Shown: piece by piece, positions 1 through 23,673 of the stretch
How the letters are laid out: each line of letters opens with the position of its first letter
How positions within the stretch are numbered: the first letter of the stretch is position 1
Source of the DNA: a virus
Length of the DNA: 23,673 nt
Virus record (IMG/VR): IMGVR_UViG_3300027736_002828
Span: 1-23,673 of that record
Reading direction: 5' to 3' (one strand)
The notes under the pieces: model-generated
Databases searched by the model: none
Seen by the model: the letters and a program-made list of their open reading frames with translations, nothing else
What the model was told of the DNA's origin: nothing
Translations under genes and position numbers: made by a program

Positions 1-2509
1 CACTGCTTCCGCTTTTTCCGCTCGTTCCGCTGCTTCCACTAGTTCCAGAAGAACCACTGCTTCCACTAGTTCCAGAAGAACCACTGCTTCCACTAGTTCC
101 AGAAGAACCACTGCTTCCGCTGGTTCCATCTGTTCCACTAGATCCACTGCTTCCGCTTTTTCCGCTCGTTCCGCTGCTTCCACTAGTTCCAGAAGAACCA
201 CTGCTTCCACTAGTTCCAGAAGAACCACTGCTTCCACTGCTTCCGCTTTTTCCGCTGGTTCCGCTGCTTCCACTAGATCCTGAAGTTCCGCTTGAACCGC
301 TGCTTCCACTAGAAGAAGCAGGTCCAATTATAAATCCACGATACGTTAAAACATTAGCACTTGAGCTTGTTAAAGCAAAATAAACTGGTTTTGAAACTTC
401 TCCAGAATTACTTGGTTCTGTAACGGTAACTGCTCCAGCGGTATTTGGTGATAAAAAATAAACAGTTCCTGCCGTTAAACCGCTTAATCCTTCAATTAAT
501 CCATCGTATACCAATTCAAAAGTATTTGCATCGACTATATTTCTTACAACACCTTGTACTTCAGCATGTTCGGCGCTATCCGCTTGAGCTTTATACCAAT
601 TAGAACCATCAAACCTAACAACATTTCCAACTATAAATCCATGATTATTTTCAGTAAAAGTATTTATTAATGAAGTTCCACTACCACCAGTTCCACTAGA
701 GCCAGCAACTATTTGTCTTTTAATTATATTATTTTCAACTACTAAAGAATATAAACCATTAGTATTAGTTGTGTTCGGCAATTCAGTAAATACTAAATTA
801 TTACTACCACTATAATATAACGTACCTGTTGTTAAACTATCTGAATCAGAGAATTTTGGTATATATCCACTAACACCAGATCCATCAATTACTTTTTTGC
901 CACTTAATGGACTAAGATTAATTATGTTATTTATGTAACCAGAAGTTATACAAATAGGATCGGAAAATTCAGAAACCGTTTCGTCAGAATTTATTGCTCT
1001 TATTTTTACAAAATAATTAGAACCCTCTACAACTGGAAAAACAAAAGATGGATTATATAAACTATGAACAAAATCAGTAAATCCAGTAATTCTTCTTGCT
1101 AAACAAATACCTGTAAAATCAGAATTAAGATCTAAAAAACCTGAATTACTATTTAATAATAAATTTGTGTATCTTGAACCTGAATAAAAACCAGTATATA
1201 TATTACCGCTATATAGACCTCCCGAAGGTAAAAATTGAAAACTATTTCCTCCAGTGTAACCATAATTCAAAAATATTTCAGAACTGTTTAAATAACCAGA
1301 AGGTATTCTTATTTCAGAAATATAATTTAAATTATTGTAATTATTTGAATATAGACCTGTAGGATATGATCCAAAATTATCCACATAAATTGTATGATCA
1401 ATCCATTGAATACCAGAAGCTCCAAAACTTTTAAAAACATCTCCTGTTATAGAATACACACTCGTACCTGTTCCACCAGCAATAGAATCTATATTTTCAA
1501 CAAAGAAGTTTTGTAGATAATAATCATATTTAGTATTGTTTTTTCCGCTTTGTTCAATAAAAACATGAAATGAACTGTCTTGAGATGATCGAATAGCGTC
1601 CCAAGACACAAAAGCTTGCAAATTTAAATCTTTATCCCTCTCATTAAAATCGTAAAAAGCGTAACCCGTTAAATTTGTTATATTTAACGGAAACAAATTT
1701 GAATTATAAGATAAAGGTTTTATTCCTGAAGAAACTATAGCTTCACCACTATGGAAATAATTATAAGGAACAACGTGAATAAAATACGGAATTCTAAGCG
1801 AGTTGTCTGTAAAAATGCTTTCGTTATTTAGAGTATTTAAATCAGGTATTTCAATGTTTGAAATATTAGGATAAAAATAACTTTTATTATACAAGTAATT
1901 ACCACTATCAAAATTAAAAGAACTTCCTGTAGTTACATATACATCAACATAATTAATCGCATCAAAATTAGAATAATCTAATTTTAAATTAACATTATTG
2001 TTAATTGATATATTTGTAATAGAAACGTCTACATCACTAAAGTCCACCAAAGCAACACCAGTGCTTTTTAAACCTCCATTATCCGTTGAAACTATATCAA
2101 TAAAAAAACTGTTTAAAACGCTGATATTTTGTAAACCAGTTATGTTCTCAAAACTATTATATAAATCATCTACAGATATATTATAAGAAGTTGAAGAAAA
2201 GGAACTCGGACCATTGAATAAAAAATTTCTATTTTTATCGTAAAATGCAATAGAAAAACCAGAAAATCCTTCTTCGGTTATTTCATTAGATAAAACATTT
2301 TTAGTTATTGGTCTAACGACTTCCCAAGTTAAACTAACTTCATTTTCTCTCAAAATCCCACTAACAAATGAAATCGACGGGTCAAGACCAAAAGTTGAAG
2401 CGGGTTGACTGTAATCAGCAACAGATAAAGAATTAGCAAAATTAAATTTTACATTGTCAATAACAAAAGGATCAAAATAAGATACAGAACTATTTGTTAA
2501 TAAAGCCAT
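1..2509 (-). CDS. Large tail fibre / tip adhesin with collagen-like Gly-X-Y tail (partial, runs off left edge)
   Basis: An open frame begins at ATG 2509-2507 (MALLTNSSVSYFDPF) and continues without a stop to base 1, so 836 residues are visible and the C-terminus is missing. Residues 1 to about 560 look like repeated beta-sandwich (FN3-like) domains, rich in Asn, Ser and aromatics, with motifs such as LTWEVVRP. Residues about 612-728 form a domain of a kind common in phage fibres (HGFIVGNVVRFDGSNWYKA, then AEVQGVV, GLTAGTVYFLS, YRGFIIG). Residues 735-836 are 34 uninterrupted Gly-X-Y triplets with Ser, Thr and Lys and no Pro, which suggests a trimeric collagen-like or flexible shaft. The gene starts 8 bases after the central tip protein, where lambda-like phages carry side fibres and their assembly genes. 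There is no Shine-Dalgarno before the ATG. Role in host receptor binding is inferred from position and domains; the receptor-binding end lies outside the window. Confidence 0.82.
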   Translation of the reverse strand, partial: MALLTNSSVSYFDPFVIDNVKFNFANSLSVADYSQPASTFGLDPSISFVSGILRENEVSLTWEVVRPITKNVLSNEITEEGFSGFSIAFYDKNRNFLFNGPSSFSSTSYNISVDDLYNSFENITGLQNISVLNSFFIDIVSTDNGGLKSTGVALVDFSDVDVSITNISINNNVNLKLDYSNFDAINYVDVYVTTGSSFNFDSGNYLYNKSYFYPNISNIEIPDLNTLNNESIFTDNSLRIPYFIHVVPYNYFHSGEAIVSSGIKPLSYNSNLFPLNITNLTGYAFYDFNERDKDLNLQAFVSWDAIRSSQDSSFHVFIEQSGKNNTKYDYYLQNFFVENIDSIAGGTGTSVYSITGDVFKSFGASGIQWIDHTIYVDNFGSYPTGLYSNNYNNLNYISEIRIPSGYLNSSEIFLNYGYTGGNSFQFLPSGGLYSGNIYTGFYSGSRYTNLLLNSNSGFLDLNSDFTGICLARRITGFTDFVHSLYNPSFVFPVVEGSNYFVKIRAINSDETVSEFSDPICITSGYINNIINLSPLSGKKVIDGSGVSGYIPKFSDSDSLTTGTLYYSGSNNLVFTELPNTTNTNGLYSLVVENNIIKRQIVAGSSGTGGSGTSLINTFTENNHGFIVGNVVRFDGSNWYKAQADSAEHAEVQGVVRNIVDANTFELVYDGLIEGLSGLTAGTVYFLSPNTAGAVTVTEPSNSGEVSKPVYFALTSSSANVLTYRGFIIGPASSSGSSGSSGTSGSSGSSGTSGKSGSSGSSGSSGTSGSSGSSGTSGSSGTSGKSGSSGSSGTDGTSGSSGSSGTSGSSGSSGTSGSSGSSGTSGSSGTSGKSGSS
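2..307 (-). repeat. Gly-X-Y coding repeat (34 triplets, 9-bp period)
   Basis: Read on the minus strand in the fibre frame, every third codon is Gly (GGA or GGT) for 34 triplets, giving GSS, GTS, GKS and similar. Nested periods occur at 9 and 27 bp. Bases 1-94 are repeated identically at 145-238. The tract is clearly more GC-rich than its surroundings. It continues past the left edge, so its full length is unknown. Confidence 0.95.
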
Positions 2510-16311: not shown

Positions 16312-19300
16312 TTAATTTCTTATTCCTGCTAATGAACCTCCAAATTGTTTTTCTTTTCTTATGACCTCAGTTACTACAGCATACATTCTAGTATTTAAGT
16401 TCTTAGAAAGCTCAATATCTTGTTGCTGATAACTTGTAGTATTAGCGCCCATTTTTATTGATCCATCTCTTTGGACACTTGTATTGAAGTTAAATGAATT
16501 ATTTGCATTCGTATTATTATTAACTGTAGAGTTACTATTTCCAGCGCCGCTAATTGATGAACCACCGCTTTGCATACCAGTTCCGTATCTTTTCACCATT
16601 GGAGAATCATATAGTCCGCCTTCCATATAACCAGGAATTGTATCTGATAAACGAGAACCTATTAATCCACCAGTTTGTCTTCCATTCTTTTTAAAATCTG
16701 GCGCATATGGATTAGCACCATAAATATTTGAACTATAAAATGGTTTTGAAGTTAAACTTCTAAAACCAGTTTGTGGAGCGCCACCAGTATATTCGAAATT
16801 TTTACCCAATAACCCTGACTTTTGATAACTAGCTAATTTTCCCATTTCTGAATTAGTCATGCCAGTTCCTCCTGTTGCTTGAACTTTTGCAGATAATTTT
16901 TGTGCATTAGTCGCTTTCATATTAGAAGCCACATTAGAAATCCCTGCGCCAATAGCTATTGTTGCAGCAGCAGCTACTAAACTACCAATCATTGCTGCTT
17001 TTTGTTTTTTTGCTTCTAATTTTTTGGCTCTATCTTCTGCGGCTTTTTGTTTTGCAACATCTGATAATTCATTATATAATTGACTATTATCCAATCCTTC
17101 ACTAGTCATATACTTTTCCATATTTGCAAGATTATCTTGATCTGATTTAGAACTTGCTAAATCAAAACCAAAAGAACCACCAGAAGCAAAACGAGGCGCA
17201 GCGCTAAAATTAAGAGAATCTAAAGCGGAAGGACCGCCCATTGCCATTACCGCATTTCTATTTAATACATATTCACCATTCTCAAGCATAGCTGGATATT
17301 TATCGCCAGTTCCAGCGCCTGATATATACATACCTGATTGAGCGCGAATATAACCTCCAGTTTGCGCTCCAAAAATACTTCCCAAGCCAGATCCACTTAT
17401 TATTTTAGATATTCCAGTATTCATTAACTGGGTACTAAATGTATCTAAAAATTTAGAAGCAACACCCATTAATGCTGCATCTAGATTATCAGTTTCTCTT
17501 ATTGTAGCTTTAATAGCATCAACCATTCCATCTCTAAAAAGCATAGGCGTATCTTTTGCCAATCTATTTAATCCAGTATCAGCATCTTCTTGTATTTGAT
17601 CGAAACCTTCTTTGAATCCCATTCTTATTGACTGTCTATCTTGAGCTTCTTGTCTAACTTTGCCATTTAAAATTTCTTGTAATTTTTGTTGTTTATCAAG
17701 TTCAGAAGTATTATCTTGCAAAGTTTGTCTTATTTGATATTCGAAGTCTGCTAATTTTTTAGCTTCATCAGATCTTGGATTTACTAATTGTCTCGCTGTT
17801 CTAAGCTCATCTGCGACTCTTTTAGCATCTTCAAGATTATTAATTGTAGGATTAATGTTAGAAATAGCATTTTTAGCGGCATTCTGGTCTTTAGTTAAAG
17901 GCTCTGTTAAATTTTCTATACCGCCACGATACATTGCAAATTCATTTAGAGACCCTCTGGCTTTAGTTAGACTATTTAATCTTGTTTGTTGTTGATTAAT
18001 ACCTAGGTTTTCGTTATTTTTTTGAATTTCAAGATTCGCTTTACCAGTGACGCCAAGTCCATAAAAATTAGCGTCTCTAGATTTAAAAGCATCTATTCGT
18101 TGCGAGTCAATTTCTAAACTATTACGAAAATTTTGCTCTGCACTGGCGGTTTCAAGAACGATTCTTAATCTATCATTATATAGTTTATTAGCTTCACCAA
18201 GTTGTTTTGCAGCTTGTTCACTAACGCTTAAATTAGCTTTTAAAGTTTGCTGTTCTACTTCTTGATCATTTTTTAATTTATCTATAATTCCTAATTGAGC
18301 GACCATTGCATTATTGACGTCTTGATTACCTAAAACAACGTCTTTTGTAATATTTCGGATTTGCTGTAATTTTGCTTCATATGTATCAATGTCTTTAAAT
18401 TGAGGAATACTAACAGTTGACAATTGATTTAATCTAGCAGAATTTTTTGTATATGAATTAATATCAAAATCTTGTGGAATTAAATCTTTGAATAAATCAG
18501 GTCTTAATAGTACATCTTGAACAGAACCTTCAAATGTACTAGGTATAGATAATGATAATTTATCTAATTGAGTTTGTTGAGCGTCTTCTAAATTTTGTTT
18601 TATTGCAGTAATTTGTTTTTTTAAAAAATCTTCTCCCGGTGCAAAAACCGCTTCTCTACTTGTTAGTTGAGTACTATCCAAAGCGTTCTGATCAATTGCT
18701 GCTTTCTTGTCATTAATTTGTGATGGCGACAGTGCAAATCCAAAACCAGCTTTTTCAGAATTAGCTTTTTCTCTCGCCGTTTTAATTTGCCTTACTGCGC
18801 TTGATGCATTTAAAATTTTATTTCTTTCAAGCTCTCTATTTATGAGTTGACCTTCTAATTCAATTAAAGCTTGAGTGCTTTCGGCTCTTCTTTGCGACAT
18901 TTTTATTTCTAACTCTACTAATGTCAATTGTTGCTTTTGTTTTGCGGACAAAGAAACCGTACTTTTTAGTTGTTGAATTAATTGTGCATTAAATTCAGCT
19001 ATTTTTTCTGGGTCTCCTACAAACCCAGCGTCTTTTGCATTTTTTGTGGAAGACGTTTTTGTTATTAAATCTTCTAGTGCTTGTTGTTGTGTTTCAGGAT
19101 TTTGTAAATTAGCCAATATAGGTTTTAAAGTTTTTTCTATAATATCTTGATTTCCGCCTCCTAATCTTTCGAATATTTGTTTTCCTGATGTGTTAATTAC
19201 ATCTGAAGACAAACGCGTTCTTTCGTTTTGCTGAGACATCGCTGTCTGTCTCAGTTTAACTTCAGCTTGCCTTCCTGCGACTTCCAAAGGACTAGTAATT

Positions 19301-22300
19301 TTATCAATAAACTCTCCAACCGCACTGTCCAATACGTCTAGTCTAGCAGAATCAAATTCTTTTTCTTGAATCTGCATGGACGCATTAAAAATATAATCAT
19401 CTATTCCTTTACGAAGATTCAACAATAATTCGCGAGAATTAAATTGAATAGCTTTTGATTTATCGATAGTGGTTTTAAAATTTTGCTGGGTTTTATCAAA
19501 ATATCTTTGAGTTATTTCTTGCATGTTATCAATAAAAAATGTACCCTCTGTTCCCATTTCTTGTATTCTGTTGTCCCCTAAAACGGCGAATTCTTCTGCT
19601 ACTTTTTTAGACATACCATTTTTTAAACCAATATTTGTTAAAGCCGTTTCACCTGTAACTCCAGCTTGCAGTTCTTTTTGATAATCCGTCGCGAAAGATT
19701 TAGTTTGATTTTCATCTAATCCGCTTTGTTTAAGCATATCAAAAAACCCTTGAAATTGAACAAAAGAAGTTTGTAAATTAGCTTCTGTGACTTTTTCTAT
19801 TTTTGCGGTGCTTTCGTTAACGTCATAACCTTTCTTTTTTAACTCATTAACCCTTGTCGCAGTTAATTCGACAAATGGTCGTTCTTGTTTTTTGTAACTA
19901 GAAGATAAACTTTTAATTCCAGAGATTAAAGAAGCTTCTTTTGTAAATTCTTGAATTGCTTGTTGCATTTTTCCTACATCGCCAGAAGCTTCATTAAATT
20001 TTCTAGCCAACTCAGGAGAACTTTCACTTAATTTTTGAAAAGTCTCTGATAATTTATATGTGGCTTGATTTAATAAACTTTCATCTTTTACACTTCCTAT
20101 TTGAGACAACTGATCAATGTAAGATTTAGCACCCTCTACCGTCTGTGTAGATGCAGCTCTGTACGATTCCGCTGCATTAGCTAAATCCGAAATAGAATCT
20201 TGAGCGCTAAGAGCCGCTTGCCCTAGTCCAACAATAGCTCCAACAGCCGTTCCTATTCCAGGACCACCAAGTGCAGTGCCAACAAAAGCGCCTGTTGATA
20301 ATCCAGTTAAAATTGAACTCGGAGCTGATGAAGCAAACCTTTCTGAAACGGACATGTCTTCCCTTCCTCTTCCTCTAGACACTATCTGCTCTAACATACC
20401 ACCAATCATTGGCGCTGCTAATTGAAAACCAACTCCGCTTAAAGCTTTTACTGACTGATTAATTCTAGTCCCCCTTCTTCTACCTGCGAATCCCCCAAAA
20501 ACGCCTCCAATTTGCTCTTCTAAAGAACCACCGTTTGATCCAAATCTTTTTTGATATCTAGCTGCTGTTTTTGGATCATTCGCTAATTCTTGCTTAATAC
20601 GCTGTTCTCTTTGTTCGCTAGAAAGATTCTTTAGATCTTGACGTCTAGTCTTTTTAGCTTGTGTTTTTGCTGCTGCTGCCGCTTCTGCTGTTGCTTTCGA
20701 CGCTGCTGCCGACGCTGCTGCCGACGCTGTTGCTGCTGTTGCTGCTACTGCTGCCGCTGCTGCTTGATCTCTAGTTTTCTGTGCTAAGAGCGCTTGAGCT
20801 GTGGCGTTGTCTGTAATTGATTTTCGAAGAGCTGTATTAGCCAGTGTAACAATATTTGCAGATCCAGTATTAACCTGTAGAACGCGAGCGTTTTGCATTA
20901 TCTGAAGCTTAAGAGCATTTTGTTCTTTACTCGTTAAAGTTAAATCTTGTGTTAACTTCTTTAAAGCCTGATTCATTTCAACAAACGCTCTACGATCTAC
21001 GTCGGGTAAAGCTTTAGATGATACGCCAAAAGCATCTTGAGATTTAACTGTCGCAAAATTAGGCACAAATCCTCTATTCATTAACCCAGCATCTTTCTGC
21101 CCTCTCATTGAATCACTTAAAGCGTTACTTAAACCACCATGATCAGATATTGCGGAACTGAATGTTGGCTGACTCTTGTTTCTAATGTGTGGGAAAGGCT
21201 TATTATCGAATACGGCTTTTTCTCCGCTCATGCTTTCTTCTAAGCCCATTACTGCTTGTTTATACGCAAAGTTAGGAAGAAATCCTTTAGCGAAACCAGC
21301 GAAGCCGTTTCTTCCTTGAGAATTCATAAATCCATTTAATACGTTTAGACCGTTTGGACCGTTTAACTTTGATAGATTTGTTTTTGGATGTGTTAAAAAC
21401 CTTAATTCTCCAGAAGTTAAATGACGACCAAAAGAAGATTCAATATCTTTTATCAACTTCATCAAGTCGCCAGAATAATGAACTGAATTTTGACTCAAAG
21501 TATCTACGTCAATTAAATCAGCAAAATTAGGTATAAAACCTTTGCTATGTGTTGTTGTCAATTCTAATAAAGAATCTCTAAGATATTGTTGTTGCTTGGG
21601 ATCTATAAGTAAATTTAATAATTGTTCTTTATTTAATTTTTTACTAGCTCCTTTAGGATCAACTAAATTACCAATAGCTGTTTTAGCTAATTTAACTCTG
21701 CTTAAACCTTGTGGAAAAGCTAAACCTTTATCTTGAGGTAAAAGTTCTCCAGTAATAAATAAATCTTTATCTTTGCCAATTATTTTTTTAGCTTTTTCAA
21801 TAATACCAGAATAAAGAATATTAGAAACACTACGTTTTTTAGATGCTGGATCTTTTATAGGATAATTGCCGCGATCCATTGACTCAATTGATAATTTGTT
21901 TTTATTTAATTCTCCATAAATAGATGAGCCATAACCAGCAGTGGCTTGTAATTCTTTTGCAAAATTAGGAATAAAACCTCCAGAAGCTTCTGCTCTATAA
22001 AAACGAGGATTATTAACATATGAAGTTAATAATTCATTTGTTTTTTGTGAAAGTACTTTAAGTAATTCAGGACTATTTTTAGCAATCTCATCATAATTTG
22101 TTGCTGCTAAAGGTAAAAACTCTTTACCTAAAGCGCTCATATATTGTAAATGCTGTGGATTTCCAGGTTCGTTAAAAACACCCAATAACTCTCTTAATCT
22201 AGCAGCAGCTTTTGGATTTTTTTTAACAAAATCATTATATTTTTTAGTAATAATTCCTGTTGCACTGCCTCCACTTTGTGAATCTTTACGACCACCTTTA

Positions 22301-23673
22301 ATTTCTATACCAACTAAATCAAGTAAATCTGTAGGATCAGTATTAACTAATTCCATAACCAAATCTAAAGACGCTTGGCCTTCTATAGTATCTGGTTCAA
22401 GAGATTGACCTGAAATTAAAGATTTTATTTTAGATTTATTAGCTTGTAAACTCATAGAAGAACGAACAAATTTCTCATATATTGGACCAAAAACATTTCC
22501 GTCACCAGCTTTTTTATTATAATCTGTTTTATTAGTTCTGAATTGTGTGGAGCTAAAAGTATCTGCCACGCCTGCCCCTGCAATATTTAATGTTGGCTGT
22601 TTTGCGTCGAATGATGGATTAGCGTATTTTTTAAACCAAGGTATTCTCAATATGCTTATAGGAGGAGCAAAGTTTGGAATAAAACCATTAGCAGAAGCTC
22701 CGATTTCGCTTCCAAATGGTTGATAAACAGGAAGAGTTCCAAAGTCTAAATCTTTTTGCGCCACATCTTCCGCTCTGCCATTAATATTTATTCTAACTGC
22801 TTTTTTAATCAACTGACTTAAATACGCCTCACCTGCTTTAACTTCAATACCTTGAATAGCATTCGGCCCCGTTGGTATTAAGTCTGCGGCTGACGTTGAT
22901 TTGTCACTTATTGTATACGCTCCAGATATTCCTGGAAGTTTTGAAATTAATTTTTCATAAGCGTCTCCGACAAAATTTTGATAATCTCCATTTAAAGAGT
23001 TTTTAAAACCTTCCGAAGTTGTAATTAATTCACCCTTTTTAGAGCCACTTTTATATTTAAAAAGGTTATTGTTTTTAGCGGCTTCTTCATTTTGTGATAG
23101 TTCATATTTCTTTTGTAAGTCTTTTAATGTAAATCCAACTTTAGATGTAGTTGTCTTAAAAACTGCCTCTAAATCAGCATCTGTTAAACCAATACTTTGG
23201 CCTGTTTTAATTAAATTTTGGTTCCCTTGAATCGAACCAAACCACATAGCAGACACGGCTGAATCAACATCTTTTTTTTGCAAATATTTTATAACATCTA
23301 TTTTTCCAGAAATCCAATCATAGACAGCATTTGGTTTTTTAGTTTTATTGTCAAAACCAGAATCTAAATTTTTTCCTACTAAATCTAAATTTTTTTCAGC
23401 ACCAATATCCGATGAACTCATTTGCATTATCTTTATAGCATGATTACTATAAGCTCTTTGTTTTTTGTCAACGCCGCCTCCATTTGGAAGCTGAAAAGTA
23501 TAATCTTCTTTATTTAATTTTGCAAAATTAGGTATAAATCCACCAGCCGTATACGGATCAACACCTGTTCTACTTATAGAATTCTGTCTATGTGCGCGGC
23601 CAGCTTTTGATCCAGCAGGAGGATTAATAAAAGGTTGAGCAAAACCGGGGACGTATTTAACATCTTCCGCAGT
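16312..23673 (-). CDS. Tail tape measure protein, very large, with motif-delimited N-terminal module array (partial, runs off right edge)
   Basis: The frame is open from the TAA at 16312 to the right edge, giving 2453 visible residues. The Met at 23427 is internal; 82 residues precede it and the true start lies outside. Numbering from that Met: residues 1-800 are an array of modules separated by GFIPNFA-type motifs (also one before the Met); residues 885-930 are an Ala-rich, charged linker; 997-1075 are hydrophobic and Gly-rich (GFQLAAPMIGGML, GAFVGTALGGPGIGTAVGAIVGLG), as expected for a membrane-inserting segment; about 1090-2000 are heptad-like, Gln/Glu/Lys-rich coiled coil. The C-terminal part has the tape-measure signature PAMLENGEYVLNRNAV (near 17247-17298), another hydrophobic helix (near 16935-16997) and the ending VVTEVIRKEKQFGGSL. 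It sets tail length and helps DNA delivery. The N-terminal array is not part of any tape measure family I can name. Confidence 0.9.
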   Translation of the reverse strand, partial: TAEDVKYVPGFAQPFINPPAGSKAGRAHRQNSISRTGVDPYTAGGFIPNFAKLNKEDYTFQLPNGGGVDKKQRAYSNHAIKIMQMSSSDIGAEKNLDLVGKNLDSGFDNKTKKPNAVYDWISGKIDVIKYLQKKDVDSAVSAMWFGSIQGNQNLIKTGQSIGLTDADLEAVFKTTTSKVGFTLKDLQKKYELSQNEEAAKNNNLFKYKSGSKKGELITTSEGFKNSLNGDYQNFVGDAYEKLISKLPGISGAYTISDKSTSAADLIPTGPNAIQGIEVKAGEAYLSQLIKKAVRININGRAEDVAQKDLDFGTLPVYQPFGSEIGASANGFIPNFAPPISILRIPWFKKYANPSFDAKQPTLNIAGAGVADTFSSTQFRTNKTDYNKKAGDGNVFGPIYEKFVRSSMSLQANKSKIKSLISGQSLEPDTIEGQASLDLVMELVNTDPTDLLDLVGIEIKGGRKDSQSGGSATGIITKKYNDFVKKNPKAAARLRELLGVFNEPGNPQHLQYMSALGKEFLPLAATNYDEIAKNSPELLKVLSQKTNELLTSYVNNPRFYRAEASGGFIPNFAKELQATAGYGSSIYGELNKNKLSIESMDRGNYPIKDPASKKRSVSNILYSGIIEKAKKIIGKDKDLFITGELLPQDKGLAFPQGLSRVKLAKTAIGNLVDPKGASKKLNKEQLLNLLIDPKQQQYLRDSLLELTTTHSKGFIPNFADLIDVDTLSQNSVHYSGDLMKLIKDIESSFGRHLTSGELRFLTHPKTNLSKLNGPNGLNVLNGFMNSQGRNGFAGFAKGFLPNFAYKQAVMGLEESMSGEKAVFDNKPFPHIRNKSQPTFSSAISDHGGLSNALSDSMRGQKDAGLMNRGFVPNFATVKSQDAFGVSSKALPDVDRRAFVEMNQALKKLTQDLTLTSKEQNALKLQIMQNARVLQVNTGSANIVTLANTALRKSITDNATAQALLAQKTRDQAAAAAVAATAATASAAASAAASKATAEAAAAAKTQAKKTRRQDLKNLSSEQREQRIKQELANDPKTAARYQKRFGSNGGSLEEQIGGVFGGFAGRRRGTRINQSVKALSGVGFQLAAPMIGGMLEQIVSRGRGREDMSVSERFASSAPSSILTGLSTGAFVGTALGGPGIGTAVGAIVGLGQAALSAQDSISDLANAAESYRAASTQTVEGAKSYIDQLSQIGSVKDESLLNQATYKLSETFQKLSESSPELARKFNEASGDVGKMQQAIQEFTKEASLISGIKSLSSSYKKQERPFVELTATRVNELKKKGYDVNESTAKIEKVTEANLQTSFVQFQGFFDMLKQSGLDENQTKSFATDYQKELQAGVTGETALTNIGLKNGMSKKVAEEFAVLGDNRIQEMGTEGTFFIDNMQEITQRYFDKTQQNFKTTIDKSKAIQFNSRELLLNLRKGIDDYIFNASMQIQEKEFDSARLDVLDSAVGEFIDKITSPLEVAGRQAEVKLRQTAMSQQNERTRLSSDVINTSGKQIFERLGGGNQDIIEKTLKPILANLQNPETQQQALEDLITKTSSTKNAKDAGFVGDPEKIAEFNAQLIQQLKSTVSLSAKQKQQLTLVELEIKMSQRRAESTQALIELEGQLINRELERNKILNASSAVRQIKTAREKANSEKAGFGFALSPSQINDKKAAIDQNALDSTQLTSREAVFAPGEDFLKKQITAIKQNLEDAQQTQLDKLSLSIPSTFEGSVQDVLLRPDLFKDLIPQDFDINSYTKNSARLNQLSTVSIPQFKDIDTYEAKLQQIRNITKDVVLGNQDVNNAMVAQLGIIDKLKNDQEVEQQTLKANLSVSEQAAKQLGEANKLYNDRLRIVLETASAEQNFRNSLEIDSQRIDAFKSRDANFYGLGVTGKANLEIQKNNENLGINQQQTRLNSLTKARGSLNEFAMYRGGIENLTEPLTKDQNAAKNAISNINPTINNLEDAKRVADELRTARQLVNPRSDEAKKLADFEYQIRQTLQDNTSELDKQQKLQEILNGKVRQEAQDRQSIRMGFKEGFDQIQEDADTGLNRLAKDTPMLFRDGMVDAIKATIRETDNLDAALMGVASKFLDTFSTQLMNTGISKIISGSGLGSIFGAQTGGYIRAQSGMYISGAGTGDKYPAMLENGEYVLNRNAVMAMGGPSALDSLNFSAAPRFASGGSFGFDLASSKSDQDNLANMEKYMTSEGLDNSQLYNELSDVAKQKAAEDRAKKLEAKKQKAAMIGSLVAAAATIAIGAGISNVASNMKATNAQKLSAKVQATGGTGMTNSEMGKLASYQKSGLLGKNFEYTGGAPQTGFRSLTSKPFYSSNIYGANPYAPDFKKNGRQTGGLIGSRLSDTIPGYMEGGLYDSPMVKRYGTGMQSGGSSISGAGNSNSTVNNNTNANNSFNFNTSVQRDGSIKMGANTTSYQQQDIELSKNLNTRMYAVVTEVIRKEKQFGGSLAGIRN
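20638..20775 (-). repeat. Ala-rich low-complexity segment in the tape measure gene
   Basis: Codes for about 46 residues, mostly Ala with some Thr, Ser, Lys and Arg (for example AAAVAATAATASAAAS). On the plus strand it appears as runs of gctgct and gccgac units, locally much richer in GC than the rest. It marks the boundary between the motif-delimited module array and the coiled-coil ruler, and is likely a helical linker. Confidence 0.85.
22228..22506 (-). other. PD-(D/E)XK nuclease-like module 2 within the tape measure protein
   Basis: Residues 308-400 counted from the Met at 23427. It repeats the layout of module 1: NVFGPIYEKFV (Glu318), ASLDLVMELV (Asp355) and LVGIEIKGGR (Glu375, Lys377). 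The two modules lie on either side of the GFIPNFA copy at 22686-22666 and share the G-x-x-Y-E-K and G-I-E-[VI]-K-[AG]-G patterns, which suggests an old duplication. Confidence 0.5.
22783..22995 (-). other. PD-(D/E)XK nuclease-like module 1 within the tape measure protein
   Basis: Residues 145-215 counted from the internal Met at 23427. The stretch has GDAYEKL (Glu158), then AADL (Asp182), then GIEVKAGE (Glu195, Lys197), the order and spacing of the core of PD-(D/E)XK nucleases: a helix with Glu, a strand with Asp, and a strand with E-x-K. All the predicted acidic and lysine residues are present. Assignment is by motif only. Confidence 0.5.

Follow-up and report, generated by a model that had tools for sequence, protein, structure and literature searches.

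The locus described here raises the question of what two nuclease-like modules do inside a phage tail protein. They are part of a giant open reading frame (ORF) on the minus strand (16312-23673) of a 23.7 kb virus fragment (IMG/VR IMGVR_UViG_3300027736_002828, 23,673 nt), which in its full length is referred to as the window. The ORF encodes 2453 aa within the window and is open at the window edge, so that the tape measure protein (TMP) is 5'-truncated and its N-terminus lies beyond the edge. The Met at 23427, taken as the protein start in a preliminary description, is therefore internal, as also seen from the relative L002, whose complete TMP copy (2723 aa) contains ~600 residues upstream of the window-covered part.

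Since the core of the window protein itself falls beyond the window edge, TMP core homology was tested via L002, which is matched by the linker, modules and C-terminus of the window protein. The N-terminal core of L002 matched the tail length tape measure annotation in PHROG (best E 2e-45), with 12 PHROG TMP families matched, and a search of the whole window TMP against Pfam and PHROGs returned nothing useful. The window genes downstream of the TMP ORF match minor tail, tail assembly and J tail-tip proteins, which together with the L002 TMP core indicates a lambda-like siphovirus tail region. Judged by this core homology and by its position before the tail-tip genes, the window ORF is a tail tape measure protein. 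The last window gene (2-2509, minus strand) is cut by the window edge within a long repeat, GSSGTSGKSG (window 1-330), that is collagen-like, and it probably encodes a tail fibre. Genome matches were obtained only from metagenome-assembled bins (Halobacteriovorax, Flavobacteriales and one proteobacterium), in which phage contigs may be misbinned.

Six copies of the peptide GF[IVL]PNFA split the window protein into five modules, all encoded on the minus strand. The constant linker end before the array (TAEDVKYVPGFAQPFINPPAG...DPYTAG, 23542-23673) shows a DNA identity of 94% to L002 and of 85-91% to other relatives, and it ends at motif 1 (GFIPNFA, 23521-23541). Module 1 (278 aa, 22687-23520) is followed by motif 2 (GFIPNFA, 22666-22686), module 2 (229 aa, 21979-22665) and motif 3 (GFIPNFA, 21958-21978). 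Module 3 (139 aa, 21541-21957) has no assigned family and is replaced by another module in L002; it is possibly a diverged relative of the L002 GNAT module, a weak link with an hhalign probability of 13% to L002_3. Beyond motif 4 (GFIPNFA, 21520-21540), the small module 4 (78 aa, 21286-21519) is also present in some relatives (L009, L018, L175, L178). Motif 5 (GFLPNFA, 21265-21285) precedes module 5 (64 aa, 21073-21264), the near-constant last array module of the clade, which belongs to a cluster of 38 members and in most relatives occupies the slot just ahead of the final motif. After motif 6 (GFVPNFA, 21052-21072), the C-terminal TMP part (16315-21051) shares homologous blocks with relatives at its C-terminal end, and a hydrophobic segment lies near the end of this part. 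A hydrophobic segment (~aa 428-448) precedes the array, and a second one follows it in most full-length TMPs of the clade. The preliminary description had reported two nuclease-like modules within 22228-22995. Both modules are real and their motifs do lie in this interval, whereas the units themselves are larger (22687-23520 and 21979-22665, each bounded by GFIPNFA) and belong to an array of five exchangeable modules, which in relatives includes non-nuclease kinds.

By scanning viral contigs for GFIPNFA-coding DNA, we obtained at least 120 stretches, nearly all of them located in long multi-copy ORFs; the motif is present in at least 133 distinct ORFs of environmental origin. Among the matches listed, 99/133 ORFs gave a hit to the TMP core profile, and almost all of the remainder are cut before the core; the motif is, among these matches, almost confined to TMPs. 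Its 231 listed copies use 99 different codon spellings of GFIPNFA, showing that the motif is kept as a peptide and not as DNA, with the context consensus A-[AS]-x-G-[FY]-[IV]-P-N-[FY]-A. A search with two linker types found no carrier among 50,697 phage records and no cultured phage. In the full-text literature, with subscription papers and preprints mostly outside the scope of the search, we found no description of GFIPNFA or of exchangeable enzyme arrays in TMPs. The linkers of L033, L036, L086 and L099 are of a different type and contain the related peptides IPNFAFG and VPNFAGG ahead of the first full motif, and these sequences may show the origin of GFIPNFA. The TMPs of L072, L187 and L188, with open frames of 4200 to 5143 codons and at least seven motifs, are among the largest phage proteins; two of these three giants were found in Halobacteriovorax metagenome bins.

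The paired motifs pointed out in the preliminary description (G-x-x-Y-E-K, a strand Asp, and G-I-E-[VI]-K-[AG]-G) were both found where they had been placed. In module 1, assigned to PD-(D/E)XK family A, they comprise GDAYEK with E189 (codon 22954-22956), SAAD with D213 (22882-22884) and GIEVKAG with E226 and K228 (22837-22845), followed by K240. Close relatives of it occur in L009, L181 and L182; those in L002, L011, L074 and L045 are more distant. When all eight sequences are aligned together, with the relatives 17-30% identical to the window copy, only G72, G178, G185, E189, D213, E226, K228, G230 and K240 are invariant (8/8). The wider alignment is partly profile-guided because the hhalign links of module 1 to the L002_1 and L045_2 types are weak (51-83% probability); the four close members taken alone likewise keep E, D, E and K.

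For module 2 (PD-(D/E)XK family B), the corresponding motifs are GPIYEK with E64 (codon 22474-22476), SLD with D101 (22363-22365) and GIEIKGG with E121 and K123 (22297-22305), followed by K142. This family includes 28 distinct sequences with 24-91% identity to the window copy, all on viral contigs. E64, D101, K123 and K142 are invariant in 28/28 sequences, and position 121 holds either E (23 sequences) or D (five sequences), a variation typical of a (D/E)xK active site, which supports the assignment to PD-(D/E)XK. Module 2 is near-constant within its clade, and selection on it is mostly purifying, with a dN/dS of 0.03-0.3 for most pairs. The pair formed by window 21979-22665 and L002:3548-4234 showed a dN/dS of 0.82 at a dS of only 0.05 (few substitutions), which could reflect a recent specificity change.

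AlphaFold2 models of both modules were of similar quality (module 1, pLDDT 71.6 and pTM 0.75; module 2, pLDDT 71.7 and pTM 0.75). In the model of module 1, E189 ends helix 169-193, D213 lies just before strand 214-216, E226-x-K228 is located at strand 225-227 and K240 in helix 234-245, followed by strand 257-269. The model of module 2 places E64 in helix 56-74, D101 just before strand 102-106, E121-x-K123 in strand 116-123 and K142 in helix 135-149, again followed by a strand (157-164); model confidence is low where the first strand lies, between helix 1 and D101, and the core is matched by order, not by significant superposition. A plain Foldseek search with module 1 gave noise, and a second structural look was weak, with influenza PA residues 1-155 first (Z 3.0; the endonuclease part of PA, a PD-(D/E)XK domain) and AvaII at Z 2.3. 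The structural matches of module 2 were weak as well (Z at most 4.8, best Foldseek E 0.057), and the lists consist mostly of PD-(D/E)XK proteins, namely bunya- and arenavirus endonucleases, the Avs4 N-terminal region, Prp8 (~1579-1736) and MspJI, with Cap4, Card1, Can2, N.BspD6I, McrBC and Bse634I as further entries; the matched regions are PD-(D/E)XK domains of these proteins. Sequence-level searches revealed no match of either module to any described PD-(D/E)XK family. The FliG-like PDB matches of the module 2 profile, its only ones, were discarded as noise.

Both models thus display the alpha-beta-beta-beta-alpha-beta order of the PD-(D/E)XK core with the catalytic residues in the expected elements, and both modules have the conserved Asp and (D/E)xK as well as an acidic residue in helix 1. 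On the basis of sequence conservation and of models of middling confidence (pLDDT about 72), modules 1 and 2 are PD-(D/E)XK-fold domains with intact predicted active sites. Since no single structural match is significant, this assignment relies on residue conservation and on the make-up of the module 2 lists. The preliminary description had proposed such a core in both modules and had argued that they are not mere structural relics. The predicted element order, which puts Asp, Glu and Lys where they are expected, agrees with the first proposal; the second is borne out by the predicted core and by the constancy of the catalytic residues among homologues (8/8 for module 1 and 28/28 for module 2, the acid of ExK always being E or D). 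By these sequence features, the two modules are not relics, and they are most likely nucleases, an activity that we infer from residues and models. A direct profile-to-profile comparison of the two modules (hhalign) gave no link; an origin by tandem duplication is therefore not supported, and they represent two separate families of one predicted fold.

The window and its closest relative, L002, share homologous DNA within the array and next to it at the coding-strand positions 1-155, 984-1715 and 2383-2628. The motifs of the window are located at 133-153, 988-1008, 1696-1716, 2134-2154, 2389-2409 and 2602-2622 on the same scale, and the ends of the homology blocks coincide with motifs, at most 6 nt off. 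Module 2 is 96% identical at the DNA level in the two phages, and modules 1 and 3 show no detectable DNA similarity between them. Beside the shared module 2, slot 1 is occupied by about ten different families among the relatives. Within the clade, the part before motif 1 is fixed at 629 aa and the array ranges from 477 to 1063 aa; relatives have both TMP flanks in common and carry different modules between the motifs. This pattern suggests that the phages swap payload by recombining whole modules at the motifs.

The module census comprised 381 modules among the matches listed, of which 117 are constant flank modules and 87 fall in clusters with an E..D..[DE]xK..K signature. Three of these signature clusters, from other phages (23, 16 and 9 members; mean identity 23-26%), have no fully invariant charged residues apart from E, D, K and K. 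The loose E..D..[DE]xK pattern alone was rejected as evidence, being present in 35/82 module representatives versus 29% in shuffles; the signal exceeds chance because of conservation, not because of pattern occurrence. Most modules had no match in Pfam. The matches found in other modules include GNAT acetyltransferases, HATPase, a HIGH-type nucleotidyltransferase, P-loop proteins and a staphylococcal nuclease homologue. Non-nuclease modules of the HATPase, HIGH-type nucleotidyltransferase and GNAT kinds are found at L048:5042-6748, L072:4886-6145, L085:1412-1939 and L002:4256-4663. By-eye readings as ADP-ribosyltransferase, zincin peptidase, HAD phosphatase or protein kinase were without Pfam support and were not adopted; the modules read by eye are located at L062:7921-8547, L110:517-1263, L027:2849-3829, L054:2209-2718, L049:3864-4439 and L045:10602-11282. 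PHROGs and PADLOC searches with 147 modules gave scattered matches only. The TMP of L002 combines two PD-(D/E)XK-type modules with a GNAT module and thus unites two or more disparate biochemistries in one polypeptide, as in polyvalent proteins; of the five modules in the window, the two nuclease-like ones alone were identified.

We consider it reasonably probable that the TMP is a carrier of an exchangeable, mostly enzymatic cargo array that is delivered together with the DNA. This reading builds on the computed catalytic-residue conservation, predicted core, array architecture, exchange at motifs, mostly purifying selection and TMP identity, and on the enzyme-family matches of other cargo modules. 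The array, placed between the N-terminal core and the C-terminal part of the TMP with each module bounded by GF[IVL]PNFA, would be assembled into the tail as part of the TMP, and at infection the protein would exit through the tube with the DNA to reach the inner membrane or the cytoplasm. The modules might then fold or be freed, possibly via cleavage at GFIPNFA, and could act on host nucleic acid, resident elements or defence factors ahead of phage gene expression. A delivery route of this kind is conceivable because the lambda TMP becomes labelled at the inner membrane as injection proceeds (PMC13190303) and the injection of multi-enzyme proteins is an established idea (PMC5512222). Several points speak against it. 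A folded 25 kDa module beside other TMP copies should be too big for the tail tube and would need to be unfolded, compact or cut, and a nuclease accompanying the phage DNA needs a reason to spare that DNA. The dN/dS of 0.82 for the window/L002 pair of module 2 also counts against the support from purifying selection, though at a dS of 0.05. A broader claim, which we put forward tentatively and regard as somewhat short of probable, is that TMPs form a widespread and so far undescribed delivery system for swappable, possibly peptide-cleavable anti-host enzyme arrays, with GFIPNFA as universal joint and PD-(D/E)XK nucleases as main payload.

The short and strongly kept motif, in its context consensus, resembles a protease site, and the array varies in length (477-1063 aa) next to an N-terminal part constant at 629 aa in the clade. 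Both observations would fit a precursor polyprotein that is cut at GFIPNFA in the producing cell, so that the modules act late and only the flanks enter the tail. We regard this as unlikely: cuts at every motif would split the N- and C-terminal TMP parts and necessitate their separate assembly, no cognate protease was identified, and the motif is almost confined to TMPs. That modules are exchanged with sharp borders and that nuclease-like ones dominate (87/381 among the matches listed) could instead point to selfish, homing-like passengers, which would cut tmp alleles without them and spread from slot to slot. However, the same slots hold many non-nuclease modules, the motif DNA with its 99 GFIPNFA spellings is too varied for a single recognition site, and module 2 is near-constant in the clade, like a retained function, which leaves homing a quite improbable account.

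Equally improbable, in our estimate, are non-enzymatic modules that serve as spacers or provide surface variation for escape from TMP-recognising host systems. Great module variation and the existence of such systems, as in the case of the host nuclease SNIPE (PMC13190303), agree with this idea, but conservation peaks at the catalytic residues in several independent families, where spacers need none, and other modules match enzyme families. PD-(D/E)XK enzymes include phage DNA-processing nucleases, and the nuclease modules might process the phage's own incoming DNA (e.g. its ends) rather than host targets. The TMP meets phage DNA during injection (PMC13190303), yet a core step would be expected to employ one conserved enzyme, and slot 1 holds about ten families among close relatives; we attach only a very slim chance to this alternative.

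Of the concepts described so far, polyvalent proteins (Iyer et al. 2017, PMC5512222) come closest to the proposed cargo array: in them, disparate enzyme domains with overlapping types (GNAT, ParB-like) occur in one polypeptide proposed to be co-injected with DNA. In contrast to these proteins, the array described here is located inside a TMP, and its modules are set apart by a fixed peptide at which they are exchanged as whole units; packaging of the array into the virion would be expected by analogy with the TMPs of other phages (PMC13190303). Tape measure proteins are not mentioned in the text of the polyvalent-protein paper (PMC5512222). TMPs with built-in cell-wall enzymes (lytic transglycosylase/peptidase; SPbeta-like annotations) likewise have an enzyme within a TMP with a homologous core, but theirs cut the cell wall, whereas the modules here are nuclease-like or of protein- and nucleotide-modifying kinds, and exchangeable. 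T4 Alt and the N4 virion RNA polymerase (PMC5512222) are virion-borne enzymes injected at the start of infection, as proposed for the modules here, but they travel in the head and do not form exchangeable arrays within a tail protein.

With the PD-(D/E)XK superfamily (Avs4, Cap4 N-terminal regions, MspJI and cap-snatching endonucleases), the two modules share the secondary-structure order and the positions of E, D and (D/E)xK, and their structural matches to members are weak, none of them significant; they differ in lacking a sequence-level match to described families and in residing inside a TMP. Polymorphic toxins and the cargo of contractile injection systems usually have one C-terminal effector and an immunity gene. 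They resemble the TMP array in combining a constant delivery part with swappable effector modules, but here several modules are internal, and no immunity gene was seen in the window.

Although enzyme-bearing TMPs and injected multi-enzyme proteins are already known, there is a fair chance that the TMP array is a new kind of delivery system. If so, many uncultured tailed phages would deliver quickly changeable enzymes via the tail ruler before phage gene expression, which would account for the great variation of giant TMPs. The arrays would be a source of numerous new enzyme families, most of them unmatched in Pfam, as candidates for anti-defence or host-takeover roles, and they would represent a natural route for protein cargo through siphovirus tails. 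The long-standing question of which TMP portion gets into the host, and how it acts there, would thereby become testable.
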